In this document: piece by piece, positions 26,437-41,635 of the stretch | How positions within the stretch are numbered: position 1 is the first letter of the stretch | Layout: every line of letters begins with the position of its first letter | Assembly (NCBI RefSeq): GCF_013752535.1 | Contig: NZ_CP058348.1 | Coordinates: 3,720,001 to 3,784,000, forward strand | Direction of reading: 5' to 3' | Length of the DNA stretch: 64,000 nucleotides | From: Bdellovibrio sp. KM01 | Lineage (GTDB): Bacteria; Bdellovibrionota; Bdellovibrionia; Bdellovibrionales; Bdellovibrionaceae | Program-made: the position numbers and the translations under genes | Notes under the pieces: model-generated | Databases searched by the model: none | The model's input: the letters and a program-made list of their open reading frames with translations, nothing else | What the model was told of the DNA's origin: nothing

Positions 26437-27366
26437 TTATTGATTTGAATCTTCGGTGGTACGGCCAAGGACAAAGATGTCTTTCAGTTCTTTTAAACCA
26501 TCTTGCAGAGTATATTTACAACTAAAGCCCGTGGCTTCGATTTTGGCGTTAGAAATCACATAGTCCCTCTTGTCGGGATCTTTCATGTCATGATTATCGG
26601 TGATTTTTAAATCTGGAATGACTTTTTGAATCTCTCGGCAGAGTTCAAGCTTCGTCATGTTCGCCGCTGTTAGGCCGACATTGTAGATCTCATTCTGAAT
26701 TGAGCCCCAATTATCGAGAGCATGAAGATACACACGGGCGGCGTCGGCCACGTGCAGGAAGTTTCTGCGAAAGTGTCCTTCGAACAAATGAATCTCTTTA
26801 TCGGTTTGGGCCTTCCACATGAAATCATTCACCAGAAGGTCATAGCGCATGCGATAGCTTGCTCCAAACAACGTCGCGAACCGGAAGGAGACGGAATTGC
26901 CATGATCAAGGATGGCTTTTTCTGTTTCCACTTTTAGTCTCGCGTAGTGGGACAAGGGCCTTAAGGGGCTTTTCTCGTCACAATGAGCCTCGCCGCCCAC
27001 TCCGTAACCACTGTTGGTCATGGGGAATAGAACAGCTTGGTTTTTCGAAAGGAGTTTCAATGCATCAACAATGGCTTGATGATTGATCGCCGTTGCTAGG
27101 TCTGTGAATTTCTCGCAAACCGGTGCTCCCGTTAAGCACGCCAGCGGTATAAAGGCATCGGCTTGCTTTAACCATTCTTGATAGGCTGAATGATTTCTAA
27201 CGTCTGTTTTTTTTAAATGAAACTTGCTGTTTCTAAGGTGCCCTTGAAAAACTTTTTGGTTATAGCGGAAATCGTCCAGCGCGAAGACCTCGTGGCCTGC
27301 AGCCAGGAGCAGATCAACAAGTTGCGTTCCTTTATAGCCAGCAGCCCCTGTAACTAGAATCTTCAT
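26437..27366 (-). CDS. NAD-dependent sugar epimerase/dehydratase (extended SDR)
   Basis: The 309-residue protein is an extended short-chain dehydrogenase. It has the NAD-binding GAAGYKG loop at the N-terminus, an acidic residue after strand 2 (ALDDFRYNQ), a substrate region MTNSGYGVGG and the catalytic YARLK (Y-x3-K). FRRNFLHVADAARVYLHAL and YNVGLTAANMTKLELCREI follow, both typical of nucleotide-sugar epimerases. The substrate is probably a nucleotide-linked sugar made by the upstream enzymes. It is the last gene of the five-gene operon and its ATG overlaps the stop of the transketolase C-terminal gene by 4 nt. Confidence 0.88.
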   Translation of the reverse strand: MKILVTGAAGYKGTQLVDLLLAAGHEVFALDDFRYNQKVFQGHLRNSKFHLKKTDVRNHSAYQEWLKQADAFIPLACLTGAPVCEKFTDLATAINHQAIVDALKLLSKNQAVLFPMTNSGYGVGGEAHCDEKSPLRPLSHYARLKVETEKAILDHGNSVSFRFATLFGASYRMRYDLLVNDFMWKAQTDKEIHLFEGHFRRNFLHVADAARVYLHALDNWGSIQNEIYNVGLTAANMTKLELCREIQKVIPDLKITDNHDMKDPDKRDYVISNAKIEATGFSCKYTLQDGLKELKDIFVLGRTTEDSNQ

Positions 27367-28289
27367 GCCATAACTTCTTCAAAAAATTCAGCGATGTTAA
27401 GACCGAGATCGCTTCTTAAAATTTCACGGCCGCCGTACTTATAGGTGTAGCCACCTTCCATATTTAAGGCCATGCGTTTTACTGCGCATTTCAAGTTCCA
27501 ATCAACGACTGTTTCAGCAATCAAAGTTCCCAAACCGCCGTTTTTAAAATGCTCTTCAAGGCAGATAACGTGAGAAAACGGTTGCAGCTCTTTGCGAAGG
27601 CTTTCGTGAACTTTATCAAGTCTTGCGACCTCGATGATATTCAGTTCCTTATTCGCCTTCATGATTTCGGGAACTTTTGCGACCAGATTGCCAGTAACCA
27701 ACAAGGCTTTTAAAGATCTTGTTTTTCTGAGGTATCTAAAACCAGTTGAAAAATTCATCTCGGACTCGCCCGGGACATGCGGAAGCACTTCACGATCTAA
27801 GCGGATATAGCGTGGAGTTTTTGGATGCTCTAAGACGTATTTGGCAGCAGCCTCAGCATTTACAGAGCTGGAAACATTTAGAATCTCAATATTTGGAAAA
27901 GCGCGCATGACAGCCACGTCTTCGATTCCGTGATGAGTGGGGCCAGAGTCTGCGTAACTAAATCCTCCGCCCACACCGATGATCTGCACTGGCAGCTTCA
28001 TGATCGACATCTGCACGCGGATTTTTTCAAGACAGTTCACAGTGATGAAAGAGGCGATGGCAAACGTGAATGCCTTTTTTCCTTCCAAGGCCAAGCCTGC
28101 AGCCACAAGGATGGCATTTTGTTCTGAAATACCGGCGTTGTAAAACTGGCCTGGCAAATTGCGACGGATCAGATCCAGAGCGGGAGCCCCCATATCTGCA
28201 GAAATCAAAACGACATCGCGATCAATTTTACCGCGCTCGTAAAGTTCAGAAAGAAAAGCATCACGTTGTGACATTTCAGATTGAGCCAT
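27363..28289 (-). CDS. Transketolase-like C-terminal subunit
   Basis: The 308-residue protein carries the pyrimidine-binding (Pyr) and C-terminal domains of a split transketolase: DVVLISADMGAP, QFYNAGISEQNAILVAAGLALEGKKAFTFAIASFITVNCLEKIRVQM (with the Glu that activates thiamine diphosphate), SYADSGPTHHGIEDVAVMRAFPNI and ALLVTGNLV. Together with the preceding gene it should form one thiamine-diphosphate enzyme that moves a two-carbon ketol unit. It lies among sugar-nucleotide genes, not next to pentose phosphate genes, so a dedicated sugar-modifying role is likely. Its ATG shares one base with the upstream TAA (TAATG). Confidence 0.88.
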   Translation of the reverse strand: MAQSEMSQRDAFLSELYERGKIDRDVVLISADMGAPALDLIRRNLPGQFYNAGISEQNAILVAAGLALEGKKAFTFAIASFITVNCLEKIRVQMSIMKLPVQIIGVGGGFSYADSGPTHHGIEDVAVMRAFPNIEILNVSSSVNAEAAAKYVLEHPKTPRYIRLDREVLPHVPGESEMNFSTGFRYLRKTRSLKALLVTGNLVAKVPEIMKANKELNIIEVARLDKVHESLRKELQPFSHVICLEEHFKNGGLGTLIAETVVDWNLKCAVKRMALNMEGGYTYKYGGREILRSDLGLNIAEFFEEVMA

Positions 28290-29119
28290 TAGAGGATTCC
28301 TTTCGCGAGATCTTTACGGGCTTGGTCGATTCCTTTGGCTCCTTGAGGGGGCACTCCGTGCAAGACTGGAATATGGGACATTGACTGGATACCCGCTCCC
28401 TTGGTTGTTTCAGCGATGATGACGGTCGGCTGACGATATTTGCGACTGCGAAGACCTTGCATGCTGCTGATGAGCTCTTCGGTGCTATGGCCATTAACGG
28501 TCACGACATTAAATCCGAATGATTCAAATTTTTTATCCAATGGTTCAAGTGCCACCATGTTTTCAGTGAAGTCAGTCGTCGCCATAAAGTTACGATCAAC
28601 GATCACCACAAGGTTATTTAGTTGGTTGTGAGCAGCAAACATTGCGGACTCCCAGATGGAACCCTCATACAATTCGCCATCCCCCAACAGGCAATAAACC
28701 AGATGCAAATCACGGTTCATTTTTGCAGCTAACGCAACACCTGCTGCCACGCCAAGGCCATGCCCTAACGCTCCTGTTGTCAGTTCAACGCCTGGGACGC
28801 TGTTTTGTAAGTGAACGCCAAAGTTTCCATTCTTTTGCGCAAAGCCTTGCAACCAGTCTTTCGGGAAAAATCCTTTGCTTGAAAGAATACTATATATCAA
28901 AGGACTGCATTGTCCTTTACTGATGATCACGCGATCGCGACCGGACCATTTTGGTTCCAGAGGATTTACATTTGCCAGACCACCAAAGTACAGACTGATT
29001 AAAATCTCCACGGCTGACATCGAAGAGGTCACATGGCCCGTTCCGGCTTCGATACACATCTCTAACACTTCCGTGCGTGTATCGTGGGCTAGTTTTTTAA
29101 GTTCATCGTGAGTCATCAT
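28289..29119 (-). CDS. Transketolase-like N-terminal (TPP-binding) subunit
   Basis: The 276-residue product is the pyrophosphate-binding half of a split transketolase. GHVTSSMSAVEILISLYFGGL, RDRVIISKGQCSPLIYSIL and GALGHGLGVAAGVALA precede the thiamine diphosphate/Mg motif GDGELYEGSIWESAMFAAHNQLNNLVVIVDRN. VNGHSTEELISSMQ then follows. It pairs with the C-terminal subunit, whose start overlaps its stop by one base, ensuring matched synthesis. Split transketolases occur in several glycan and antibiotic-sugar clusters. The start overlaps the DegT-family gene by 4 nt. Confidence 0.9.
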   Translation of the reverse strand: MMTHDELKKLAHDTRTEVLEMCIEAGTGHVTSSMSAVEILISLYFGGLANVNPLEPKWSGRDRVIISKGQCSPLIYSILSSKGFFPKDWLQGFAQKNGNFGVHLQNSVPGVELTTGALGHGLGVAAGVALAAKMNRDLHLVYCLLGDGELYEGSIWESAMFAAHNQLNNLVVIVDRNFMATTDFTENMVALEPLDKKFESFGFNVVTVNGHSTEELISSMQGLRSRKYRQPTVIIAETTKGAGIQSMSHIPVLHGVPPQGAKGIDQARKDLAKGIL

Positions 29120-30294
29120 TTTGCCACCTCGTTAAGTGCCTTGCAGAGCTGATCAATCCATTTAAGGGGAAGGGACGGAAAGTTCCCGATATAAAATCCG
29201 TTGTGATGGATTTGTTCTGTGTTCACAAATGCCGTTGGATCGATATCAATCCCGCGTGTTTTTAGAAATCCTTGGCGAAGTTGATTTCCTCCGCCTGACA
29301 TTCCCCGACGGTACTCGACTCCTAAATCTGAAAGTACTTTTTCCACCTTAGATTTTAGGTGAGCTTTATCGGGAAGGATTTGTAGTAAAAGAGCATAACT
29401 GGAACTGCCCTTGGTATTATAGCGGGTAAAATATGTATTCTTATCCAAGCCTTTTAGGAATCTGTGCAGGCGCAGACTTCGCTGCGTGTTGTTTTTATCC
29501 AGACGCTTTAATTGATTGAGTCCTAAGACCGCCCCAAGCTCGTTGTTGCGAAAATTGAAACCCACCACCGGGAAATCAAATTCTTTATAGACTTGTTTTG
29601 AGTTATTTAAATGCTTTTGCAACTGCGCTGGATCTGTTGATTCGCGCAACAGACCGTGTCCCCGCTTTATTCGCACCAGCTGTGCGAATTCAGGATCATT
29701 GGTGCAGACCATACCGCCTTCGATTGTCGTCATGTGATGACCATAGTAAAAGGAAAAGTTTGAAGCAAAGCCGATGCTTCCCACTTTGTGGGTACCCATC
29801 TTTGCGCCATGAGATTCACAAGCATCTTCAATCAAAGGGATCTTGTGCTTTTTTAAAAGTTGCTGCAGCGGCGTGCTTAAACCATTCAATCCCAGAATAT
29901 GCGTTAAAAAAACGGCTTTGGTATTTTTGGTAATGGCTTTTTTTGTAGCCTCGTAATCAAGAGCCAAGGTTTCGGGATTAATATCAACGAACACTGGTGT
30001 AAAACCATTTTCAATAACAGAAACGATGTCAGAAACCCAGGTGAGTGGTGGAACGATCACCTCGCCCACACTTGCGACATCTCTTAAAGCAGAAAGCGTC
30101 AGGAAATTTGCAGCCGACCCGGAGCTGACAAAAATACTATGCTTTACGCCCAACCACTTCGACCATTCTTGTTCGAACTTTTTAACTTTATCACCTTGAG
30201 TGAAGCGATCAGAAGTCATGATGTGCTTCACCAAGGCCGTCTTATCGGCTTCAGTGATATTGTTTTGAATCAACGGCCAACGAAAGTCATTCAT
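29116..30294 (-). CDS. DegT/DnrJ/EryC1-fold PLP enzyme, probably a sugar 3-dehydratase (ColD/RfbH-like)
   Basis: The 392-residue product has the DegT/DnrJ/EryC1/StrS fold: DRFTQGDKVKKFEQEW, VSSGSAANFLTLSAL (phosphate cup), VIVPPLTWVSDI, PVFVDINPETL and PLIEDACESHGAKMGTHKVGSIGFASNFSFYYGHH. At the position where aminotransferases have the PLP-binding Lys (SFxxxK) this protein has His186. The same change defines ColD and RfbH-type enzymes, which remove the C3 hydroxyl of a 4-keto-6-deoxyhexose instead of aminating it. A 3-dehydratase is therefore more likely than an aminotransferase. Both neighbours overlap it (8 nt and 4 nt), so it is translationally coupled within the operon. Confidence 0.85.
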   Translation of the reverse strand: MNDFRWPLIQNNITEADKTALVKHIMTSDRFTQGDKVKKFEQEWSKWLGVKHSIFVSSGSAANFLTLSALRDVASVGEVIVPPLTWVSDIVSVIENGFTPVFVDINPETLALDYEATKKAITKNTKAVFLTHILGLNGLSTPLQQLLKKHKIPLIEDACESHGAKMGTHKVGSIGFASNFSFYYGHHMTTIEGGMVCTNDPEFAQLVRIKRGHGLLRESTDPAQLQKHLNNSKQVYKEFDFPVVGFNFRNNELGAVLGLNQLKRLDKNNTQRSLRLHRFLKGLDKNTYFTRYNTKGSSSYALLLQILPDKAHLKSKVEKVLSDLGVEYRRGMSGGGNQLRQGFLKTRGIDIDPTAFVNTEQIHHNGFYIGNFPSLPLKWIDQLCKALNEVAK

Positions 30295-31786
30295 AGGAGG
30301 CCTTTGCTAACACTTTATCCAGAGTATATTTGCGGCTGAGTTTTATCTTTTTCAAATTCTCGATGTATTCAAATGTCTTTGGTCCGAACTTAGATTTGAT
30401 CAAATTCAAATAGGCCGGGCTATTATGGTAAATACTCCATGCCTGATCGCGGAAAGTTAAGACCTCTGCCGAGCTGATATGCTTAGTCGGTAAAGGTTTG
30501 CAATCATAGGAGTGCTGGCTGTAACCCAACCAGTTTTCAGGAAGCTCGATATTATTACGAACGGCTTCTCGATAAAGCTCAGATCCTGGGTAGGCCATGG
30601 CAGAATAGAAATTTGCAGTTTCCAGATTAAGCTCGACCGCCAAATCCAAATTTCTTTGCATGGTTTCTAAAGTATCATCTGGAAGACCAAAGACAAAGTT
30701 TCCATGGACGTGAATTCCGCCGTCCTTGAGCATTTTGGTTTTTTCGAAGATGTCGTTTTCGGTATAGCGGCCTTTGTTCACTCCGCTTCTTACGGTTTGA
30801 TCAAAGGCCTCAATACCCAGAACGATCCAGTTAATACCGGCTTTTTTAAGTTTTTCCACGTGTTGCGGTTTCACGGTATCGATGCGACCGAAAACCCAGA
30901 TGTTGAAGTTAAATTTTCTTTCAATAAGTAGGTCCGCGATCGTTAGGAAATGTTCTTCTTTAAGAACGAACATCTCGTCGGCAATCTTGATATTTTTGAC
31001 TCCCATGGCAGCAAAGACATCAAATTGCTTAATAATGTGATCTGGCTGCCAATAACGAAACGTGCCTTGTTTTCCGAAGGGCGCACTGATGCAACAAAAA
31101 CTGCAGCGAAACGGACAACCTAAACTCGTGTAAACAGTCGCGTAGGGTTGCCGGTCTTCAATATGATCAAAGCAATGCCAATTCGGAGCTTTATAATTTC
31201 CTGTTGGAAGAGATTGCAGATCCACCTTGGGAAACACGACATGCAACTGATTCTGCTCGATTAATGTTGCCATGGGATTGTGTTGAATGTGACCGTCTTC
31301 ACGGAACCACAAGCCAGGAACTTTCCTTAGAGCGCTTATGTCATTGAAGTTTGTTTTCAACAAAGCATCCAAAGTTTTGGGACCTTCACCCTCGCAGACA
31401 TAATCACACGCTTCATCCTGCATTGTCCGTAGCGGTAATGCGGAGATATGGCCACCAAGCATGATAATCTTTAATTCGGGATCCAGTTTTTTTAACTCAG
31501 TACACAGATAGCTTGCACCAAACATCGCTTGAGTCGAAGCCGATGGGTGTTGCCCATAGACGACAATACAAATCAAGCGAGGGCGCAGATAGGAAACGCG
31601 ATCATACGTTTGCGCGACACTCAGATTTTCTGCAGCACAATCCACCTGATCTGCCGAGTGCCCCAGGGTTTTCATAGAGGCCGTAAGCATTCCCATCCAC
31701 ACTGGCATTTCCAGCGTAGCGACACCGCCACTCAAGTTTTGATAGACGTGTTCAGATATGGGTGGATTTAAAAACAATATATCCAA
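30287..31786 (-). CDS. B12-binding domain radical SAM protein
   Basis: The 499-residue protein begins with a cobalamin-binding domain (residues ~1-150: MDILFLNPP, EMPVWMGMLTASMKTLGHSADQVD, IIMLGGHISALP, CDYVCEGEGPKTLDALL). A radical SAM domain follows with the 4Fe-4S motif C-x3-C-x2-C in TSLGCPFRCSFCC, KIADEMFV and GIHVHGNFVFGLPDDTLETM. The class includes C-methyltransferases and ring or chain-remodelling enzymes. As the first gene of the sugar operon it may methylate or otherwise modify the sugar or its lipid carrier; that is inference. Its end overlaps the DegT-fold gene by 8 nt. A divergent membrane protein starts 53 nt upstream. Confidence 0.88.
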   Translation of the reverse strand: MDILFLNPPISEHVYQNLSGGVATLEMPVWMGMLTASMKTLGHSADQVDCAAENLSVAQTYDRVSYLRPRLICIVVYGQHPSASTQAMFGASYLCTELKKLDPELKIIMLGGHISALPLRTMQDEACDYVCEGEGPKTLDALLKTNFNDISALRKVPGLWFREDGHIQHNPMATLIEQNQLHVVFPKVDLQSLPTGNYKAPNWHCFDHIEDRQPYATVYTSLGCPFRCSFCCISAPFGKQGTFRYWQPDHIIKQFDVFAAMGVKNIKIADEMFVLKEEHFLTIADLLIERKFNFNIWVFGRIDTVKPQHVEKLKKAGINWIVLGIEAFDQTVRSGVNKGRYTENDIFEKTKMLKDGGIHVHGNFVFGLPDDTLETMQRNLDLAVELNLETANFYSAMAYPGSELYREAVRNNIELPENWLGYSQHSYDCKPLPTKHISSAEVLTFRDQAWSIYHNSPAYLNLIKSKFGPKTFEYIENLKKIKLSRKYTLDKVLAKASYE

Positions 31787-31839: not shown

Positions 31840-33348
31840 ATGTTATTATATTGCATTATATTCTTGCTCGTCGTCGTGTACTGGCCCGCCAGTATGTTCT
31901 GGGATCAAGACATTTTATGGGCTCGTGGAATTTCCAATTACATCGATTGGCCCGTTCACTTTGCGCAAGCATCGAAGGTGCGTTACCAAACCATCGTCGA
32001 ATGGTATACGCACAATCCCTTCGTGTATGGTGCTCGCAATAACTACCCATTCTGGGCGGATGTTCCATCGGGATTGTTGTTAAGGCTGGGACTTCCTTTT
32101 AAAACCGCATTTTTAATTCCCTCGGTTCTTTTTACGGTTCTGTTCTTTTATTGCTCTTACAAATTTTTGAAAAAAAGAAGCTTTTCCAATAACTCCATCG
32201 CGGCTGTCCTTTTTCTTTTTCTATTTGCGAGCATGCCAACGGGAGAAGGAACGCAGCCGCAACTGTGGTTAAACACATTCAGCCCGAATCGCAGCCTTCT
32301 GATTACATTTTCTTTGCTCTTGGTTGTTTATGATACTTTTAGCGACTTTTTAACAAGTCCCAATGTGCCCAACCTAAGGACACGAGTGATGACTTGGTTA
32401 AAACTTACTTTCATCACTCTGATCATGTGTATGACCCATCCCCATACACTTCTTTCAACCGCAGTCGTAGCCACCGTGTTTTCGATAGTGACCTTTTATA
32501 AAAAGCGCAAGATTCCAGTTGAAGCAGTACTATGGGCCTTTACCAGTCTTGCGATTATTTTGACCTTCAAACATTACCTGTGGAGTGAGGCGACTACCGG
32601 GTACCCGATCTTCAGACCCAATTGGACACAAGAGCGTTTCGCCATCAGTCCATGGATGTTCTGGCCAACCTACGGCGGAGTCGTTTATCTCTTGGGAATG
32701 TATTTTGGTATCGTTAAAAAACGTTACTTAGAACTCGCGATCATTCTGATTTTAACCGCATTGCATTTATTGTTTCAGTGGCAGATTAATGAATACGATA
32801 ATATCAAAAACACGCTGATCATGATGTTTTTGTGTTCGGCACTTATTGTTGAATTCTTTCCTTCGAAAAGATGGCTGGCCGTTTTCTGTGTCATCTGCGT
32901 TTTACCTTCCCTAAAGGAGTGGACAGAAATTTATCCCCTGACCACCCGAGAAGAAATGGCCATGGCAGACAAGCTGCAAGTGGAAACTCCTAAAAACTAT
33001 GTCGCCATCATCGACAGTCGCCACAATCATCCAGTGCCCATGTTCACTTCGATTCCCGTGATGGCATGGTGGGACTTCTATTCTTGGACTCTGGGACTTC
33101 GCAACAACCGGGAAACCATTTTTAGAATGCAAATGCTAAGAAGACCCTTGGAAATGACTTTCGTAAAACCACTGTTAGTGATTTCCAGAGACGACGGAAG
33201 CTATTCTGACTATGAAACTTCAGGACGATTCAAAGATCTAACGGGCGTCTATTTGCAGTTTGATAAATCTGCGCTTAAGGATGTTCCAGTTTTTGACAAA
33301 GGTGCTGGCTACACAATTTACCGCAAATTTGGAATAGAAGGTCAGTGA
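31840..33348 (+). CDS. Large polytopic membrane protein, GT-C glycosyltransferase-like
   Basis: The 502-residue protein has about ten hydrophobic helices, an extracytoplasmic acidic loop after helix 1 (SMFWDQDILWARGISNYIDWPVHFAQASKVRY), further helices to ~residue 360, and a soluble C-terminal ~140 residues. Asp in the first loop after helix 1 is the hallmark of GT-C enzymes that use polyprenyl-phosphate sugars. No specific GT family is recognised. It overlaps the convergent glycosyltransferase gene by 7 nt and diverges from the radical SAM operon. Confidence 0.65.
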   Translation: MLLYCIIFLLVVVYWPASMFWDQDILWARGISNYIDWPVHFAQASKVRYQTIVEWYTHNPFVYGARNNYPFWADVPSGLLLRLGLPFKTAFLIPSVLFTVLFFYCSYKFLKKRSFSNNSIAAVLFLFLFASMPTGEGTQPQLWLNTFSPNRSLLITFSLLLVVYDTFSDFLTSPNVPNLRTRVMTWLKLTFITLIMCMTHPHTLLSTAVVATVFSIVTFYKKRKIPVEAVLWAFTSLAIILTFKHYLWSEATTGYPIFRPNWTQERFAISPWMFWPTYGGVVYLLGMYFGIVKKRYLELAIILILTALHLLFQWQINEYDNIKNTLIMMFLCSALIVEFFPSKRWLAVFCVICVLPSLKEWTEIYPLTTREEMAMADKLQVETPKNYVAIIDSRHNHPVPMFTSIPVMAWWDFYSWTLGLRNNRETIFRMQMLRRPLEMTFVKPLLVISRDDGSYSDYETSGRFKDLTGVYLQFDKSALKDVPVFDKGAGYTIYRKFGIEGQ

Positions 33349-34283
33349 CCTTCTAAATTCACCTGTTCATTCACGATATAATGGGGACGGTTACGAGTCG
33401 CCGTGTGCACTTGACGAATATAAAACCCAAAAAGCCATACAATATAAAAAAGTGCCGAAAAGCCAAAACTAATAATCGCCAGGAGCAAACTGTTTTGATT
33501 AAAGTTTTTTAGAACTGAAAACCCACTCCACAATGCCCCCAATAAAAAGAGCGAGCCCGTGAAAAATGGCAAATGCAGAGGGAAATAAGAGAAGTGTGTC
33601 CACGCTCGGAAAAACTCCAGATAGCTGCGTGGCCCCCCCAAAGAAAAATTAGTTTCGCCCGCGAAACGCGGCTGTCTTTTAAACGGAAGATACGCTTGCT
33701 TTAAACCTATCCAATCCGTGTAAGCTCTAAAGTATGGATCCACCTCACCCGACTTTAGAATTTCATTTACTGCACGACGGGTGAGAAGTTTAAAGTTTCC
33801 ACAATCGACTGAGTATTTGAAAGGATAAGACGCCGACAAAATTCTGTATGAAAGCTTCAACATAATACGCTTGTAAAGCGTTTCACCGTGACGCTCGACC
33901 ATATGAGTGTTTACGACATCTGCCTGCGTGGTCTTCCAAAGTTTTACAAGTTCTTCGAATAACTCTGGTGGATCTTGCAGGTCGGAATCCATCGTGACCA
34001 CCAAGTCACCCTTAGCCACTTTAAGTCCGGCAAAAAAGCAAATATCACGACCCATTTGGCGGGTCATTTGCAACAGACGAATGCGCTTGTCGTTCTGAAT
34101 AGCCTCTTTAATCAAGTGAGGAGAAAAGTCCTTGGAATGATCGTCAACGAAGATCATTTCACCATCGATGTCGAATTCTTGCTTAAGTTTATTTAAAGCA
34201 GATGAACATCTTGAGATGAACTCAACAATTGTAGCGCCCTCATTCAAATTAGTCAGTACGACGGATAGAAGCATGTTATCCAC
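33342..34283 (-). CDS. Polyprenyl-phosphate glycosyltransferase (GT2, DPM1/ArnC-like)
   Basis: The 313-residue product has an N-terminal GT2 domain with SVVLTNLNEGATI, the nucleotide-binding MIFVDDHSKD, and the metal-binding DSD in VVTMDSDLQDPPELFEELV. DCGNFKLLTRRAVNEI precedes the acceptor region and FAGETNFSLGG. Two C-terminal hydrophobic helices (~235-258, 272-296) anchor it in the inner membrane. Relatives transfer a sugar from a nucleotide donor to undecaprenyl phosphate on the cytoplasmic side, providing the lipid-linked donor that GT-C enzymes use outside. The nearby GT-C-like proteins fit this pairing. Confidence 0.85.
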   Translation of the reverse strand: MDNMLLSVVLTNLNEGATIVEFISRCSSALNKLKQEFDIDGEMIFVDDHSKDFSPHLIKEAIQNDKRIRLLQMTRQMGRDICFFAGLKVAKGDLVVTMDSDLQDPPELFEELVKLWKTTQADVVNTHMVERHGETLYKRIMLKLSYRILSASYPFKYSVDCGNFKLLTRRAVNEILKSGEVDPYFRAYTDWIGLKQAYLPFKRQPRFAGETNFSLGGPRSYLEFFRAWTHFSYFPLHLPFFTGSLFLLGALWSGFSVLKNFNQNSLLLAIISFGFSALFYIVWLFGFYIRQVHTATRNRPHYIVNEQVNLEGH

Positions 34284-34320: not shown

Positions 34321-35778
34321 ATGAAGAATTTTGGCCCTGCGATCAAGATCGTCTTTTACTATATTATCCCCATTATTTTCATCGCGAGCTATTTGTTCAC
34401 CGCAGTCAAAGAAACGCAGTATGGACTTAATCGAGACTATGCGGAAGGAACGACGCTGGCTTTTGTAGAAAAATGGAGAGCCAGCGAAAGTCCCCGCGCA
34501 CTCTATTCTGCAGAAAATTTTGAACAAGGAAGTATCACCGGATATCCGTTCGCGCACTTGGGATTGGTGTCGACTCTTAGCCATGACGCCAGTAGTGCTT
34601 TATCATCTGGAAGAATCATCTCTATCGCATCGGCTATGGCAATCGCCCTGATCGCTTGGTTGATTCTAGCGAATTTCGAATTGGCGAGAATCCAGGACCT
34701 TCCATTGCTTACCACATTGATTTTGTATCAGACTGCCATCTTTGATTGGTCTTTGTTGGCGCGCTCCGACCTGCTGGCGGCAATGCTTGAAACGCTGGGC
34801 GTTTTATTTTATGCGCAAAGCTTGAAAGCGAATCGGGTTTCTTTAGTTCCGTCTTTGCTTTGCTTCCTGCTCGCATTCTTTTGCAAACAGAACTTCATTG
34901 CGGGATTTATCTTAGTCTTTGCTTCTGAGTTCTTCCGTGCTCCCGTTCAGACTTTGAAATCTACGCCGATCTATATTTTTACCGGGGCTGCTATCTTAGG
35001 CATTGTCACATGGGTGTTTGGCCTAAACTACTGGGAACACACAGTGACTCAACTAGGTGGGCAAGCTTGGTACTTTTCGCGACTTGTACAAATGCTTTCG
35101 AGTTATCTGGTATCGCATCTGTATATTATTATTCTTTCGCTCTCGGCTCTTTTCCTACTTCCTTTCAACAAGCCATTTAGGAATATTTTGATTGCCTGGG
35201 TTGCAATCGGATTGTTCCTGGTACTTTTAGGATTAGGTCGCGCTGGCTCTAATTACAATTACTTTATCTCTTTGAGTATTCCGTTAGGCATGCTGGCATT
35301 CCTGAGTATTCAAAATCTTTTGAATACCGAATTTTCGGGAAAATCATTTGCCGCGATTTTAATAGTCGCCTTGCTCATGGGATCTGCCTTCTTTGAAAAC
35401 CATGGCTTTGCCGGAAGACTGACTTATCTTGATCACCGAGCTTGGCCACCAACTCGATCAGATACGAGAAAGGCCATCGAAAATACGAAGTCTCACCTAA
35501 CAGGATTTTCTGCGACAAATGTGTTTTGTGATGAACCCGGTATTTGTACACTCCTGGGCTTTACCCCTGATTTTACTTATTTTGAGAACAACATGAATAC
35601 CCAAATGGGTAAGCAAAAAAGCTTTGATCACTATGACACTTTGTTACTGACTGAGTATCCAAGTGAAAACCTGGCTTGGACAAAGTTTAAACTGCCTGCG
35701 GGGTTTGTTAAAACAATTCACGAAAAGTATGAACTTCGCAGAATCTCGGACTTGGGATTTATTTTTACACTTAAATAG
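34321..35778 (+). CDS. Polytopic membrane protein, GT-C glycosyltransferase-like
   Basis: The 485-residue protein has ~11 hydrophobic helices. After helix 1 comes the acidic loop QYGLNRDYAEGTTLAFVEKWRAS, then helices with motifs DWSLLARSDLLAAMLETLGVLFYAQSL, FFCKQNFIAGFILVFASEFF and LGLGRAGSNYNYFISLSIPLGML. The same layout (YGES or YAEG loop, SxLARSD or MGRLDGL, KQ, GREGSxxNF) recurs in the 41586-43031 protein, so the two are paralogues. A lipid-linked-sugar transferase of the GT-C fold is the best guess. It diverges from the GT2 gene, 37 nt away. Confidence 0.65.
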   Translation: MKNFGPAIKIVFYYIIPIIFIASYLFTAVKETQYGLNRDYAEGTTLAFVEKWRASESPRALYSAENFEQGSITGYPFAHLGLVSTLSHDASSALSSGRIISIASAMAIALIAWLILANFELARIQDLPLLTTLILYQTAIFDWSLLARSDLLAAMLETLGVLFYAQSLKANRVSLVPSLLCFLLAFFCKQNFIAGFILVFASEFFRAPVQTLKSTPIYIFTGAAILGIVTWVFGLNYWEHTVTQLGGQAWYFSRLVQMLSSYLVSHLYIIILSLSALFLLPFNKPFRNILIAWVAIGLFLVLLGLGRAGSNYNYFISLSIPLGMLAFLSIQNLLNTEFSGKSFAAILIVALLMGSAFFENHGFAGRLTYLDHRAWPPTRSDTRKAIENTKSHLTGFSATNVFCDEPGICTLLGFTPDFTYFENNMNTQMGKQKSFDHYDTLLLTEYPSENLAWTKFKLPAGFVKTIHEKYELRRISDLGFIFTLK

Positions 35779-36135
35779 TTATAAGAATTCGCAGCGGTTG
35801 TTCTGAATCACTGCCACGCGATCTAAAATACAATTGTACTTAAAACCGAACCAACCGGGATTTTGCACCCAAGAAACATCTGAAATTTCCTTTTTCAGCA
35901 AGTAGGCCTCGGCATTAGCATTCAACGCTGGCACCCGAATAACCACTAAACCTGGCAAGTGATCCCAATCAGCTTTTTCTCCAATTGGTGAACACAGCTG
36001 TTGGGAGTATTGAATCTTCTCCAGATGACAAGCTTGATCCTGGGAAACGAAATAATAATAGCGATGGCTTGCCGCAGTCACGGCGAGCACCAATCCCAAA
36101 ACCAAAAATAGAAAGGTCTTATTCGCTACATTCAT
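35779..36135 (-). CDS. Hypothetical membrane-anchored protein
   Basis: The 118-residue product has a hydrophobic N-terminal segment (TFLFLVLGLVLAVTAAS), either a signal anchor or signal peptide. A ~95-residue extracytoplasmic part follows with four cysteines (QACHLEK, QLCSPIG, YNCILDR, NRCEF) that could form two disulfides. No family is recognised. The stop abuts the stop of the convergent membrane protein gene with no gap, and the ATG lies 47 nt from the start of the divergent epimerase gene. Confidence 0.55.
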   Translation of the reverse strand: MNVANKTFLFLVLGLVLAVTAASHRYYYFVSQDQACHLEKIQYSQQLCSPIGEKADWDHLPGLVVIRVPALNANAEAYLLKKEISDVSWVQNPGWFGFKYNCILDRVAVIQNNRCEFL

Positions 36136-36182
36136 TCAGATTAATTCTTGCCTTCAGCACCTGCTTAGTCACTAAATTAACT

Positions 36183-37088
36183 ATGGTAAATAAGAAATTA
36201 TTGCTACTGGGAAGCTCCGGATTAATTGGCAGCGCGATCTTTAGAAAACTCACTGACCTAAAGTCATTTGAGATAGTATCTCCATCTTCGTATGAGTTGG
36301 ATTTACGTGATTCCTTTGCCGTCGATAGATACTTTCAAACCCACAAACCTACACATGTCATTCATGCCGCAGGCAAAAGTGGCGGAATCTATGCCAACAT
36401 TAACAATCCAAGTACTTTCTCGGTCGAAAATACCTTGATGACCGTCAATGTCCTGCAATCTGCATTTAAAGCCGAAACAAAACGACTTTTGCAATTCATC
36501 CCGTCTTGCGTTTATCCACTGACTGCCGAACTTCCCTATAAAGAAGAGTCCATCGGCTCAGGGCACATTGAAGAATCCAGCAAATATTTTGCTTATGCGA
36601 AACTAAATGCACTGATGATGGCACAAGCCTTTAATCAGCAACACAAGACCGAATTTATTTCGATCATTCCAAGTAACGTCTATGGCCTGGCAATAAAGTC
36701 TGCATCAGAAAACTCCCATGTGATTCCTTCTTTAATTCACCGCATGTTGGTTGCAGTAAAAACCAATCAGAAGGACATCCAAATCTGGGGCGACGGCAAA
36801 AATAAAAGGGACTTTCTGTATTCAGATGATCTGGCCGAAGCGACTTTGATGATTTTAAATCACGCATCTCCTAAACCAGTTATCAACGTGGCCAGCGGAG
36901 AAGTTGTTTCGATCAGCTCCTTGGCTGAGCTGATTCGAGAAACCGTAGATTACAAAGGGAATCTTAATTATAAGAACAATGGCTTAGCTGGGGCTGCTCA
37001 TAAGTATTTGGATACTTCGACTGCGAATGCACTGGGCTGGAAAGCACGCACAACGCTTAAAGATGGAATCAGATCTTTACTAGTTTAA
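36183..37088 (+). CDS. GDP-L-fucose synthase-like epimerase/reductase
   Basis: From the ATG at 36183 the product is 301 residues. KLLLLGSSGLIGSAI is the NADP-binding loop. THVIHAAGKSGGIYANINNPSTF, FIPSCVYPLTAELPYKEESIGSG, YFAYAKLNALMMAQAFNQQ (Y-x3-K) and SIIPSNVYG correspond block by block to GDP-L-fucose synthase (Fcl), and RDFLYSDDLAEATLMIL to the C-terminal region. Fcl converts GDP-4-keto-6-deoxymannose to GDP-L-fucose; related enzymes act on GDP-heptoses. No 4,6-dehydratase gene is in the window. An upstream in-frame ATG at 35985 would overlap the divergent gene and adds unrelated residues. It overlaps the following convergent gene by 20 nt. Confidence 0.85.
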   Translation: MVNKKLLLLGSSGLIGSAIFRKLTDLKSFEIVSPSSYELDLRDSFAVDRYFQTHKPTHVIHAAGKSGGIYANINNPSTFSVENTLMTVNVLQSAFKAETKRLLQFIPSCVYPLTAELPYKEESIGSGHIEESSKYFAYAKLNALMMAQAFNQQHKTEFISIIPSNVYGLAIKSASENSHVIPSLIHRMLVAVKTNQKDIQIWGDGKNKRDFLYSDDLAEATLMILNHASPKPVINVASGEVVSISSLAELIRETVDYKGNLNYKNNGLAGAAHKYLDTSTANALGWKARTTLKDGIRSLLV

Positions 37089-37977
37089 TATTTGCCGGAT
37101 GGCGCATGCCATCTGGAGGATTGAATATATCGTCCTCTCCGTCTGGCGAAGAAACACGCAAAGACTTTCCAATTTCAAAGAACTGCTCATTGGACAGCTT
37201 TTGACGTTCCACCAAAAGATTCAGGTCATCTTTATAGATATTCTGATCATAGGTTTTCAAAACAACGTTTAGATCAATAGAAACTCTGGAGCCTGCGCTC
37301 TCTGCGCGATGAGTTCCATGCAGCAACGAAGAATCCACCATCAACATATTGCCCGCGATATTATTGACGTCTAATTCTGTGCTGTCTTGAATAAGATCTT
37401 GAGCTTCGTGATAACTGGAAAGAGGTTTCAACCAGGCTGATTCAAACTTTGCCCCTGGCATCCATACTTTCAGAAGGTTATTCGAAAGGTCGCCCAAAAT
37501 GGGAATATGCAATAGGACTGAGCGCAAAGAACACCCCACCCAAGTTTCAGAGTGAGGAAGTTCTGTGGGATAAGCCCGTGAACCAGCCCCCTGATCAATT
37601 CCTTTCAATCGGATATTAAATGGATATATCCAAAACTCCACAGCATGTGCAATTTGGGATTGTTCTAAGATTTCCGCAATCGTTTGGTGGACTTCGGTGA
37701 ATTTGTGATCGCAATAGGATTTGGGAATTACGATTCCCGAGGTACTGATGTTTTTGGCTTTGGCAGGTAATTCAGTCAGCGCTTTTTGCAAGTCGTCTTC
37801 ATGAAACTCATTCGCTCCACATGAGGCTTTTAAGTATTCCTGAACCTGAATCTGCAATTTCAAAAACAGGTGACTAGGAATGCCAAAGCTTGCTGTCAAT
37901 GGAGCTTGCGATCTAAATCCGGTACCAGAAATAGCTTCGTCAAAGAACTTCTTTCTTTGAAAATGGTATTCGTTCAT
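37069..37977 (-). CDS. Putative Fe(II)/2-oxoglutarate dioxygenase (phytanoyl-CoA hydroxylase-like)
   Basis: The 302-residue protein shows the metal-binding pattern of the phytanoyl-CoA hydroxylase group: His142-x-Glu144 in LPHSETWVG, His220 in SLLHGTHR, and Arg231 in GSRVSIDLNV eleven residues later for 2-oxoglutarate. The intervening stretch (SVLLHIPILGDLSNNLLKVWMPGAKF) suits the jelly-roll core. A sugar or lipid hydroxylation role is suggested by its neighbours. The assignment is from motif reading only. Its start overlaps the upstream nucleotidyltransferase stop by 4 nt (operon), and its end overlaps the convergent epimerase gene. Confidence 0.6.
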   Translation of the reverse strand: MNEYHFQRKKFFDEAISGTGFRSQAPLTASFGIPSHLFLKLQIQVQEYLKASCGANEFHEDDLQKALTELPAKAKNISTSGIVIPKSYCDHKFTEVHQTIAEILEQSQIAHAVEFWIYPFNIRLKGIDQGAGSRAYPTELPHSETWVGCSLRSVLLHIPILGDLSNNLLKVWMPGAKFESAWLKPLSSYHEAQDLIQDSTELDVNNIAGNMLMVDSSLLHGTHRAESAGSRVSIDLNVVLKTYDQNIYKDDLNLLVERQKLSNEQFFEIGKSLRVSSPDGEDDIFNPPDGMRHPANIKLVKI

Positions 37978-38693
37978 ACCGCTTCCTTATTGAAGATACT
38001 TTGAAGGTGCTTAAAGCCCGACTCGGTTCCAAAATCTATTTCAGCAAATGGATAAGCCGTAAACTTTGCGCGAGTTTTGATTTTATTAAAAACTTCTTTT
38101 TCATAGGAACAAGACATCGGCAAACCCAGCTTATGCCAGTTATGTACGATTTCAGAACTCAAAACCGACAATCCCGTGTAGGTATAAGAATGCGTCTGAT
38201 AGAGATCCGGCCAAGCATGTGCCTTTTGTTCGGAAATATCGTGAAATGCGGGCTTTGTTTCAAAATTGCGCATAAAGAAAACAGCGTCTTTATTCGCGGT
38301 TGATTGCGACTTTACGAGCTCAAAGGGATTCTCTGAAAAATAAGTATCGGCATTAGATAAGATAAAATACTTTTCTTGCAGATAAGGAGCGGTCAAAGTC
38401 AACGCTCCCCCTGTTCCCAAGCGAGTTTTCTCTTCCGGAAAGGAGAAGTGCATTGGGTAGTTCAATTTGCCAACTGCATTTTCAATGATCTCCCGATTTG
38501 GCCCACCCAAAATGATGACATGTTCAATCCCTGCCGAGTGCCCTTGCGCCAATAAATAATCTAAAAATACTCGGCCTGAGAATTCGGTCAGGCATTTCAC
38601 TTGGCTTTCGGAATTCAAAAAACTGTTTAGCCGCGAGGCCATGCCTCCAGCCAAGAGAACTAAAGTTTTTGATTCCAATTCCGAATTTACCAA
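37974..38693 (-). CDS. Sugar-phosphate nucleotidyltransferase
   Basis: The product has the nucleotidyltransferase signature TLVLLAGGMASRL near its N-terminus, then KCLTEFSGRVFLDYLLAQ, HVIILGG, EKTRLGTGGALTLTAPYL and ILSNADTYF, with the metal-binding Asp. It would join NTP and a sugar 1-phosphate. I chose TTG at 38693 because AGGGAAA lies 7 nt upstream and it leaves a normal short N-terminus. An ATG at 38741 is possible but would overlap the divergent kinase gene by 32 nt and lacks a ribosome site. Beside a GHMP kinase this resembles the HddA/HddC arrangement of GDP-heptose synthesis. The substrate is inferred only. Confidence 0.75.
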   Translation of the reverse strand: MVNSELESKTLVLLAGGMASRLNSFLNSESQVKCLTEFSGRVFLDYLLAQGHSAGIEHVIILGGPNREIIENAVGKLNYPMHFSFPEEKTRLGTGGALTLTAPYLQEKYFILSNADTYFSENPFELVKSQSTANKDAVFFMRNFETKPAFHDISEQKAHAWPDLYQTHSYTYTGLSVLSSEIVHNWHKLGLPMSCSYEKEVFNKIKTRAKFTAYPFAEIDFGTESGFKHLQSIFNKEAV

Positions 38694-38709
38694 AGTAGCA
38701 TTTCCCTGA

Positions 38710-39612
38710 ATGGTATTTAAATCGAGTATTCCATATCGCATAGGTTTAATTGGAGGCGGAACAGATCTGCCTTTTTTTACCAACAAACATGGAACCGAAA
38801 TTATCAATGCTTCGTTTAAAGCCTTCTCTCATTGTGAAATTCGAAAAATCCAAAGTCCACACATTTTTATTGAGACCAATGATTACAAAACGCAGGTTCA
38901 GATCGATAAACTTCCAGAGATGGTGTTGATTTCCAGAGATGAATTTCGTATCAGCCTGGCTGTTCTGAATAATTTTGCAGATCTTGTGACATCGCTGGGT
39001 GGCGGACTTCATATTAAGACATACTCTGAATTTGCACCGCAGACCGGCTTGGGCGGAAGTTCCGCGCATTTAATCGCGGTTTTAAAGGCTTGTCTAAATT
39101 ATATGAATCTGAATTGGGACGATAAACAGATTCTGGACACGGCTCATTCGATAGAGCGAGACACACTGAGCATCTTTGGTGGTTTTCAGGATTTCTATCC
39201 GTGTCTGTATCAGGGTGCTCACCATCTTTCCAAGAATCCAGGCTCTGAAATCATCCACCGTACTCTGGATGGTAATTTCCTGAACGAGTTAGATTTATCT
39301 TTCTTTATCATGGAATCTTCAGCCGTCAGCTTAGGTGAGACCGACTTACCAGAACTGAACTCTTTAAAGATTCAAAAGGATCTGGCTCATCAAGCAGCAA
39401 ATGCCTGGAAGCAAGGCCAACACTCTGTTTTCAAGAATTTACTGCAAGAGAGTTGGAAGGCGAAAAGCCAGACGGCAAATCTTCCCCATGTATTTGCCAC
39501 GAAGACCTGCGGCCTTTCAAAAAGAATGAACGTCGTCGCTGTGGAAAAATCCCTGGAAAAACCATTCACCGAAAGCAGTGGCCATGCAGCTCGCAAAATT
39601 GAATGGCATTAA
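38710..39612 (+). CDS. GHMP-family sugar kinase (HddA-like)
   Basis: The 300-residue product begins with the sugar-kinase opening SIPYRIGLIGGGTDLPFF and has the ATP-binding motif APQTGLGGSSAHLIAVLKA. It also has the acidic/Gln block SIERDTLSIFGGFQDFYPCLYQGAHH, which matches D-glycero-D-manno-heptose 7-phosphate kinase and L-fucokinase-type enzymes. It phosphorylates a sugar at C1, giving substrate for the adjacent nucleotidyltransferase. A stop codon directly precedes the ATG, fixing the start. The usual C-terminal GAGGGG motif 3 is not obvious, so the C-terminus is diverged or shortened. It overlaps the next gene by 29 nt. Confidence 0.82.
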   Translation: MVFKSSIPYRIGLIGGGTDLPFFTNKHGTEIINASFKAFSHCEIRKIQSPHIFIETNDYKTQVQIDKLPEMVLISRDEFRISLAVLNNFADLVTSLGGGLHIKTYSEFAPQTGLGGSSAHLIAVLKACLNYMNLNWDDKQILDTAHSIERDTLSIFGGFQDFYPCLYQGAHHLSKNPGSEIIHRTLDGNFLNELDLSFFIMESSAVSLGETDLPELNSLKIQKDLAHQAANAWKQGQHSVFKNLLQESWKAKSQTANLPHVFATKTCGLSKRMNVVAVEKSLEKPFTESSGHAARKIEWH

Positions 39613-41635
39613 GTCTTTCATAGTAAAGCACTTCGAGAAACTAATTTTCCTTAATTGCATAGTCGCTGCGATCGTCCTTTACCTTCATGACATTCTGTAT
39701 TCTTTAGACGGCGGTGGTCGTTATGCCAGCGGGTTAGATTTTCTGGAAGTTGGAATTCACGGGTACAATGACCACTATTTCTTGGGTGGCGTACAAAATC
39801 TTTTTTACCCCCCACTGCACGATATTCTTCTGGCAGTTTATCTAAAACTCAGCCAGTTCATTTTTAACGGAAGCTTAAACCACCGATTAATTTATAGTAC
39901 TTTCGTCTTTATTATCTTTAGTTTCTTTATATATTCGGTCTATAAGGTCTCGAAACATTTTGCGAGTATTGCGGCAAAAGTCTTTTTGCTAGTTTTCATC
40001 AGTTGGTCCCTCTTTATAAATATATATTCTCAGAACATGAATTTGGGATCTTCGCTTAACTTTTACAAAATGCCGAAGACCATCTTTTATCAAGGATTAA
40101 GCTTTCAAGACATATTCGTCACGGGCCTAACAAATCAGTTTTTATCCGCAGGATTTCTAGTCCTTGCAATACTATCGCTCACGAAGAAAAACCACATAAG
40201 AACCGCTTTTTTAATCTCACTGTCGATTCTTTCACATTTCATTTTTGGATTGGTTATTGTTCTACTCTGTACAGTTAAAATGGCGTTTGATCGAGACTTC
40301 AAAAATCTGTTGAAAATAGGAATTATCTGCTTCGGACTAACAGCCTTTTTTATCGTTCCACTTTATATCTACAAAGACTTTATGATTACTCAAGTAGCCA
40401 TGCCATTCAAAACCGGATTTTGGCTCAGCATGGTAGCTGTCCTATTTCTCCTATTTAAATCCAAGAATTTTTCTTATCATTTGTCATTCTCTGCTCTGCT
40501 ATTGGTTTCATTTATTGGTCTAGCCAAAATTTTAAACAAATTCAATTTTCCTTATCCCAACTTTCACTACTATCGTCTTCTCTATCCGTCATTGTTGTTA
40601 TCATTGTTTGCAGTAGCATTTTTTTTGAATGAAGCTCACGCAAAATGGAAGAAGGTAATGCTGACTGGAATATTCAGCCTGGCTTGGTTTGGAAATTTTG
40701 GAGGACACTTTTATGCTGCAGATATCTTCACAGCCTATATCCCCGAGTTCGAAAGTATTTCACCTCCTAGCCAAAGCGATTTTGGCAAAGGTCGAACATA
40801 TTTTTTTGGAATTGGAAGACCGGTAGATTTCGCTGCCGAAATTAATACTCGAATAAACGAGCAAAGACTATTCTTCGTTAAGGGCCTCTATTGGGAAAGC
40901 GCTCAAGCTAATAAGCTGATTTCTTCAGTTATTTATAAACTCATGGGCCCGCCGACCGTTTTAGAGGGAATGGGCGAAAAGACATTCGAAACAAAATCCT
41001 GTGAATTTTTTAAATGTGCCTTCAAATCTCTAATGAACATCACATCCGTTTCAGAAATATGGATGCCACCCAAAGAGACTTTATTGAAATACTTTGAGCT
41101 TGGAATTCCAGAGCGAAAGAAATTTCTTTCTTGTTACGACGACTTATTGAATTCATTAGAAGCGCCATCGGGCCAACTGAAGTTTAGCGCTATGATTCAA
41201 AATAGATATATTAATCGTGATACCGCAATTGTGAAGCCTGTAGATAGACGAAACTCTGAAACAACAATCGATGCAATTACAGAACGATGCGAGGCTAATC
41301 CCAATGATGATGGCCGAATAGATGAAATTAACCTTCCCTCTATTCATCGTAATTTCTCTGGAAACTACGTGCTTAATCTTCCGGTGCACTTGGCTGAGTA
41401 CCATGTTTCACTTCAATATTTCCCAGGTCTAAAATATGACACGGGCAAAAGCAAAGGCTTAGTGCCAGTACAGTCAAAGTCCGGAGTAATTATTCAAGGC
41501 TCTGAGACCGTCCATCTCTACTATGAGCGCACTTGGATAATGTGGTTTGCATATGTGATAACCGCGTTGTCCGTTACTAGCGGTCTTATAGCTCTTGTGG
41601 TGACGTCAGCAAAAAGTAGTCATTCTGATAAATAG
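39584..41635 (+). CDS. Large polytopic membrane protein, GT-C glycosyltransferase-like
   Basis: The 683-residue protein has about 12 hydrophobic helices up to residue ~385, a large soluble domain (~390-650), and a final helix (WIMWFAYVITALSVTSGLIALVV). After helix 1 the loop YLHDILYSLDGGGRYASGLDFLEVGIHGYNDHYFLGG contains the acidic residues expected of a GT-C active site. The layout, with helices, a big extracytoplasmic domain and a C-terminal helix, resembles oligosaccharyl- or mannosyltransferase-like proteins. Start is ATG 39584 or GTG 39578, both inside the kinase gene. It overlaps the convergent gene by 50 nt. AT content is higher than in the genes around it. Confidence 0.6.
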   Translation: MQLAKLNGIKSFIVKHFEKLIFLNCIVAAIVLYLHDILYSLDGGGRYASGLDFLEVGIHGYNDHYFLGGVQNLFYPPLHDILLAVYLKLSQFIFNGSLNHRLIYSTFVFIIFSFFIYSVYKVSKHFASIAAKVFLLVFISWSLFINIYSQNMNLGSSLNFYKMPKTIFYQGLSFQDIFVTGLTNQFLSAGFLVLAILSLTKKNHIRTAFLISLSILSHFIFGLVIVLLCTVKMAFDRDFKNLLKIGIICFGLTAFFIVPLYIYKDFMITQVAMPFKTGFWLSMVAVLFLLFKSKNFSYHLSFSALLLVSFIGLAKILNKFNFPYPNFHYYRLLYPSLLLSLFAVAFFLNEAHAKWKKVMLTGIFSLAWFGNFGGHFYAADIFTAYIPEFESISPPSQSDFGKGRTYFFGIGRPVDFAAEINTRINEQRLFFVKGLYWESAQANKLISSVIYKLMGPPTVLEGMGEKTFETKSCEFFKCAFKSLMNITSVSEIWMPPKETLLKYFELGIPERKKFLSCYDDLLNSLEAPSGQLKFSAMIQNRYINRDTAIVKPVDRRNSETTIDAITERCEANPNDDGRIDEINLPSIHRNFSGNYVLNLPVHLAEYHVSLQYFPGLKYDTGKSKGLVPVQSKSGVIIQGSETVHLYYERTWIMWFAYVITALSVTSGLIALVVTSAKSSHSDK

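Follow-up and report, generated by a model that had tools for sequence, protein, structure and literature searches.

In the 64,000-nucleotide (nt) stretch of the Bdellovibrio sp. KM01 chromosome analyzed here (contig NZ_CP058348.1, positions 3,720,001 to 3,784,000; the window), a minus-strand block at positions 26437-31786 carries five open reading frames (ORFs) for a B12-binding radical S-adenosylmethionine (SAM) protein, a DegT-fold enzyme, the two subunits of a split transketolase (TK) and a short-chain dehydrogenase/reductase (SDR). We consider it probable that these genes are the window copy of a sugar pathway in which an oxygen is removed from an activated seven-carbon sugar and a two-carbon branch is added by a thiamine enzyme. 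In the order that we infer, a Cj1427-like dehydrogenase would oxidize C4 of GDP-heptose to a ketone, a ColD-like DegT enzyme with an active-site histidine would remove the C3 hydroxyl to give GDP-3-deoxy-4-keto-heptose, and the split transketolase would place a two-carbon acyl unit on the C4 ketone, yielding a nine-carbon sugar that is branched at C4 and carries a tertiary alcohol. The B12 radical SAM enzyme would act on the branched product or on its precursor, and a reduction by a GDP-fucose-synthase-like (FCL) enzyme may be included.

The five ORFs overlap at every junction, by 8, 4, 1 and 4 nt, and their family names are backed by both Pfam and NCBIfam; a first-pass annotation of the DNA had described the same overlaps, and its coordinates and families were confirmed. 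The host genome is complete (3.96 Mb). The DegT gene was found in 3 of the 23 listed genomes of the genus, namely the window's own, G209 and G118, and is hence accessory. In G209 and G118 the five genes are intact and in the same order as in the window, and all five families stand together in 17 loci (the window and one duplicated contig counted), with the order rearranged in other phyla. Since the set that the first pass had proposed looking for recurs in this way, within the genus and beyond, the block is no chance neighborhood.

ColD is the best PDB match of the DegT enzyme. Residue H186 aligns with ColD H188, which stands at the position of the catalytic lysine of aminotransferases; the ColD entries 2r0t and 3b8x carry Lys and Asn at this position and so mark the site for the alignment. 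The His-His motif is kept in 89/89 DegT relatives. In sister loci retrieved by way of the radical SAM gene, the DegT slot is held by a second lineage with the motif FSSFFSHHIATMEGG, scoring 435 bits to ColD, and this swap of two lineages in one slot supports a common 3-dehydratase function. On these alignments the enzyme is predicted to remove the C3 hydroxyl from a 4-keto nucleotide sugar, which agrees with the 3-deoxy-4-keto chemistry first proposed for a DegT protein of the His type.

The SDR had been named an epimerase, which is only the name of its Pfam family. Its best PDB match is 6vo6/6vo8 (E = 1.8e-82, 280 bits), the next PDB sequence scoring 62 bits; these entries are labeled in the PDB only as a putative epimerase/dehydratase, and we take them to be Cj1427 of Campylobacter jejuni, a C4-dehydrogenase. 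The protein is most likely a Cj1427-like enzyme that makes the 4-keto group. A gene for L-2-hydroxyglutarate oxidase (LhgO) directly adjoins the SDR relative in L140, L141, L143, L150 and L152 and lies near it in L097; on the Solidesulfovibrio magneticus plasmid pDMC1 (L119) both are in one cluster. Both LhgO copies tested (n = 2) exceed the curated cut-off. L-2-Hydroxyglutarate, the substrate of this oxidase, is the by-product of Cj1427 (PMC10680097). Enzymes of the Cj1427 type turn over with alpha-ketoglutarate as the driving reagent and produce L-2-hydroxyglutarate, a reaction that the position of LhgO beside the SDR relatives would match specifically. No LhgO relative was found in the window's own genome.

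The thiamine diphosphate (ThDP)-binding subunit of the third enzyme has as its best PDB match 6yak, the N-terminal component of a split-chain transketolase. As in split-chain ThDP carboligases, the ThDP and pyrimidine subunits are separate and the catalytic Glu is present; the subunits are of the Transketolase_N and Transket_pyr types and do not have the decarboxylase-type domain order of YerE-like enzymes. To compare active sites, 23 pathway TK pairs were aligned with Escherichia coli TktA and with the Tkt of the window's genome (E. coli numbering). The catalytic Glu411 is kept in 23/23 pairs, while His461 is lost in 23/23 and Asp469 in 22/23, and Ser385 is replaced too; both controls retain H461 and D469. 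The window pair has Arg at the R520 position but, with H461 changed to G, S385 to P and D469 to S, differs from a canonical transketolase. In transketolases, H461, S385 and R520 are phosphate-binding residues, and the histidines listed below are ketose-donor residues. Family membership is the one point in favor of an ordinary central or catabolic transketolase that lies beside sugar genes by chance. The loss of phosphate-binding residues, the conserved linkage, the presence of a separate, canonical full-length tkt in this genome and the in-place exchange described below all speak against such an enzyme, which we reject as very improbable.

His26, His100, His261 and His473 are retained in the window-type TK, with Gln at His66. 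As most of the ketose-donor histidines are therefore kept, a donor of the ketose type, and with it the transfer of a hydroxyacetyl unit, is possible. Another TK subgroup is without His26 and His100, which suggests a different donor, and in the loci that carry an E1-like enzyme in place of TK the donor is probably pyruvate.

The exchange of these two thiamine enzymes was followed in the 64 loci whose flanks were long. The split transketolase occurs in 19 of them and an E1-like enzyme in 33; no locus combines the two, and 12 are without either (Fisher p = 1.6e-8, relatedness ignored). When TK and E1 are mapped as states on the DegT tree, 14 changes are needed, of which at least 5 are forced by well-supported branches. 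The loci L082 and L037 share an identical order (radical SAM, kinase, FCL, thiamine pair, DegT, nucleotidyltransferase, Cj1427-like), in which one has TK and the other compact E1 subunits. On Azospirillum plasmids the swap occurs inside one genus. No E2- or E3-like family of the pyruvate dehydrogenase complex was found among the recurrent neighbor families of the clustered loci. E1-type pairs are established enzymes for the C2 branching of ketones in antibiotic pathways (PMC12247030). Because TK interchanges with this class, the addition of a two-carbon branch by the thiamine enzyme, already put forward in the first pass, gains support, and the in-place replacement by E1-like alpha/beta pairs is the strongest new evidence for it.

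Two further observations concern the thiamine enzymes. A very compact two-subunit E1-like enzyme of about 199 + 178 aa, the beta subunit of which is a pyrimidine domain only, without a Transketolase_C domain, is encoded in L037 (8789-9933), L057 (9242-9775) and other Nitrospira-type loci. In L022 (15744-18650), a second transketolase pair adjoins an HldE-like cytidylyltransferase-type protein near the first pathway copy.

Scanning genomes with the DegT alignment yielded 80 loci, and neighbor families were counted by unsupervised clustering over 89 loci. The organisms belong to at least 10 named bacterial phyla; one locus, L074, is from the cultured Pseudomonas gingeri G9001. The families most often seen were an HddA-type kinase (72/89), the radical SAM protein (61/89), an FCL-type reductase (57/89), the Cj1427-like enzyme (53/89), an HddC-type nucleotidyltransferase (46/89) and GmhA (19/89). 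For representatives, the best-fitting models were those of HddA, HddC and GmhA, with scores under the strict cut-offs. As the kinase, nucleotidyltransferase and GmhA families are linked across loci, the data support a pathway set that extends beyond the five genes.

The same linkage bears on the substrate. The first pass had the enzymes work on a CDP- or GDP-3,6-dideoxy-4-ketohexose; we replace this by GDP-heptose, which is probably the substrate, given that the genes linked to the set resemble HddA, HddC and GmhA, that no 4,6-dehydratase of the genome reaches the cut-off and that the SDR is closest to Cj1427, a GDP-heptose C4-dehydrogenase. A 6-deoxy route through a GDP-mannose-type (GMD) 4,6-dehydratase was rejected on the same absence.

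Several points weigh against a C4-branched sugar made from GDP-heptose, beside the assumed identity of 6vo6/6vo8. The kinase and the nucleotidyltransferase of the window are divergent and score below cut-offs. No gmhA was found in any of the eight genomes of the genus tested (G000, which is the window's own, G209, G118, G048, G061, G069, G104 and G148); the sedoheptulose-7-phosphate isomerase step is missing in the genus, so that it must be carried out by a different isomerase unless the substrate is not the same. These observations would fit a route in which the enzymes of this genus take a GDP-hexose and give a branched octose and not a nonose. HldD scores above cut-off in all eight genomes and heptose is therefore probably made in them; moreover, heptose kinases are the best PDB matches of the window kinase and the SDR is far nearer 6vo6/6vo8 than anything else, and we hold the hexose route to be quite unlikely. 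The acceptor raises another difficulty, as transketolases normally use aldehydes. The thiamine enzyme might then act elsewhere, for example on an aldehyde at C7 or on a free aldose, and the product would be a chain-extended sugar and not a C4-branched one; loci of Azospirillum with the kinase, the Cj1427-like enzyme and TK but without DegT are consistent with this, since 3-deoxygenation is not required there. The interchange with E1-like pairs, which are known to branch ketones, and the linkage to an enzyme making a 4-ketone both favor the C4 ketone as acceptor, and we regard a reaction elsewhere on the sugar as unlikely. Finally, the first set of loci was gathered by DegT similarity, so that co-occurrence with DegT is built into it. 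To remove this bias, the radical SAM protein was used as query in a reverse search of 399 genomes from a single order, the one to which the Betaproteobacteria record L100 belongs. It gave 17 matches; in 15 neighborhoods, kinase and thiamine enzyme were found in 15/15, DegT in 13/15 and the Cj1427-like enzyme in 13/15.

Other gene combinations were met in these searches. When plasmids were searched with the DegT protein, nothing matched at E 1e-60; the radical SAM and SDR proteins as queries found the Azospirillum and Solidesulfovibrio plasmids. The Azospirillum plasmid loci L118 (9136-16099) and L014 (4859-9778) carry the kinase, the Cj1427-like enzyme and the TK pair, with the radical SAM gene in L118 and no DegT gene nearby, and it is possible that they make a non-3-deoxy version of the branched sugar. 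Eight loci, mostly from Bacillota (L027, L029, L031, L033, L050, L086, L094 and L101), have a GMD-type 4,6-dehydratase with a His-type DegT enzyme, a kinase and mostly FCL, without thiamine enzyme or radical SAM protein, and resemble the 3,6-dideoxyheptose pathways of C. jejuni HS:5.

The B12 radical SAM protein has its CxxxCxxC motif at C224/C228/C231, invariant in 56 relatives, and the B12-binding region is conserved too. The AlphaFold2 (AF2) model of the protein has a pLDDT of 91.8, and the closest PDB folds are AprD4 (a diol dehydratase), TsrM and MgmA (methylases) and OxsB, a set that does not separate methylase, dehydratase and ring-former. The best NCBIfam score, 143.5 bits, is to HpnJ and lies below the equivalog cut-off of 577.6, which places the protein outside HpnJ itself. 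HpnJ forms a cyclitol ether through ring contraction (PMC8590665) and is among the few B12 radical SAM enzymes that do not methylate (PMC13142503). The reaction may be a methylation, a dehydration or a ring closure: the methyl transfer suggested in the first pass stays one option, although the nearest curated family is that of a ring-forming non-methylase. In raw counts, the radical SAM gene and GMD are strongly anti-correlated (both in 2 loci, radical SAM only in 44, GMD only in 13); after correction for the tree the median p was 0.5, with too few informative pairs, and we do not build on this pattern.

The features of the window that were assigned to the pathway are given in Table 1.

Table 1. 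Genes of the five-gene block and candidate pathway genes in its neighborhood.
Product	Position	Strand	Family or best match
B12-binding radical SAM protein, 499 aa, TTG start	30287..31786	-	Pfam PF02310 + PF04055
DegT-fold, ColD-like sugar 3-dehydratase (predicted), dependent on pyridoxamine/pyridoxal phosphate (PMP/PLP), 392 aa	29116..30294	-	PF01041; His at Lys position
Split transketolase, ThDP-binding subunit, 276 aa	28289..29119	-	PF00456 (Transketolase_N)
Split transketolase, pyrimidine-binding subunit with catalytic Glu, 308 aa	27363..28289	-	PF02779 (Transket_pyr)
Cj1427-like SDR, predicted GDP-heptose C4-dehydrogenase, 309 aa	26437..27366	-	Pfam Epimerase; best PDB match 6vo6/6vo8
GDP-fucose-synthase-like reductase/epimerase (FCL), start probably further in	35985..37088	+	NF047922, 264 bits
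Divergent HddC/MurU-like nucleotidyltransferase, upstream start uncertain	37974..38807	-	NF049965, 45.7 bits, below cut-off
Divergent short HddA-like GHMP sugar kinase	38710..39612	+	NF049969, 88.6 bits, below cut-off; best PDB matches are heptose kinases

A frameshift in the short kinase gene was ruled out, because G209 and G118 conserve both its length and its end. A second HddA-like kinase of the genome (G000:C1:2919220-2920170, 122.7 bits) lies outside any evident heptose cluster. Overlapping the nucleotidyltransferase gene, a minus-strand ORF at 37069-37977 encodes a protein of 302 aa without Pfam, NCBIfam or PADLOC match. It is conserved in both G209 and G118 and has H-x-E and distal H/R motifs that recall, by eye, the 2-oxoglutarate (2OG)-Fe oxygenases. 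Four large ORFs without Pfam match (31840-33348, 34321-35778, 39578-41635 and 41586-43031), which by eye encode proteins with multiple membrane segments, interleave with the sugar genes and with a GT2 gene (33342-34283), and are perhaps polyprenyl-sugar-dependent glycosyltransferases.

Literature searches, made in open-licence papers, found no description of the pathway, in agreement with the first pass, to which no described pathway with this exact set was known. The closest parallels are the GDP-heptose pathways of the C. jejuni capsule, with HddA/HddC/GmhA, a Cj1427-type C4-dehydrogenase, a ColD-type C3-dehydratase and an FCL-type reductase (PMC10680097, PMC10440746). They are described, however, with neither a thiamine enzyme nor a radical SAM protein; the word "transketolase" is absent from both papers and "branched" from PMC10680097. 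Cj1427 and the HS:5 C3-dehydratase were combined only in vitro, where they gave GDP-D-glycero-3-deoxy-4-keto-heptose in a combination reported as artificial (PMC10680097). From the gene content of the present loci, this pair of dehydrogenase and dehydratase appears to be used naturally here, with a thiamine step added. The yersiniose and erwiniose pathways likewise place a branch of two or more carbons on a 3-deoxy-4-keto nucleotide sugar of surface polysaccharides (PMC12247030), but their YerE-type enzymes are of the decarboxylase superfamily and act on CDP-3,6-dideoxy-4-ketohexose, in contrast to the split TK or E1-like pairs found here, probably with GDP-heptose. For miharamycin and amipurimycin, a split transketolase has been proposed to place a two-carbon unit on a sugar ketone; this is known as a proposal only, from 13 Streptomyces sequences of antibiotic clusters that were never assayed (PMC12247030), whereas the loci described here are of the surface-sugar type and come from at least 10 phyla. 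The alphaKADH2 enzymes (aldgamycin, kibdelomycin KbDH) are E1 alpha/beta pairs that branch sugar ketones and are paralleled by the E1-like pairs of the sister loci; they are known from antibiotic clusters, and the window carries a TK pair instead. HpnJ, which forms the cyclitol ether ring of bacteriohopanetetrol (BHT), shares the B12 radical SAM family and gives the window protein its best NCBIfam score, but one far under the cut-off, and no hopanoid genes are involved in the window block.

We know of no biosynthesis for caryose, a sugar the skeleton of which can be read as a 3-deoxyheptose (C1-C7) with an acetyl unit (C8-C9) on C4 and an extra C7-C8 bond. It occurs in the lipopolysaccharide of Pseudomonas (Trinickia) caryophylli as a 4,8-cyclo-3,9-dideoxy-nonose (PMC9026286). 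The proposed pathway would supply the rest of this skeleton, and for the C7-C8 bond a radical enzyme resembling HpnJ suggests itself. The product may thus be a carbocyclic nonose of the caryose type, in which an acetyl or hydroxyacetyl unit is placed on C4 and the HpnJ-like enzyme joins C7 to the branch carbonyl to close a cyclopentane; we offer this, on structural analogy, as a tentative and rather doubtful extension. If it is true, the pathway would be a possible biosynthetic route to caryose and a widespread one to ring-fused sugars, with a new ring-closing reaction of B12 radical SAM enzymes.

The loci provide many candidate branching transketolases across at least 10 phyla, and the candidate acceptor GDP-3-deoxy-4-keto-heptose has already been made enzymatically (PMC10680097), so that the reaction is directly testable. 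If confirmed, they would form a large new family of enzymes for carbon branching that is at the disposal of chemists. The pathway predicts that nine-carbon branched or carbocyclic sugars would be common in the surface glycans of bacteria, among them Nitrospira, Planctomycetota, Verrucomicrobiota, Bdellovibrionota and others.

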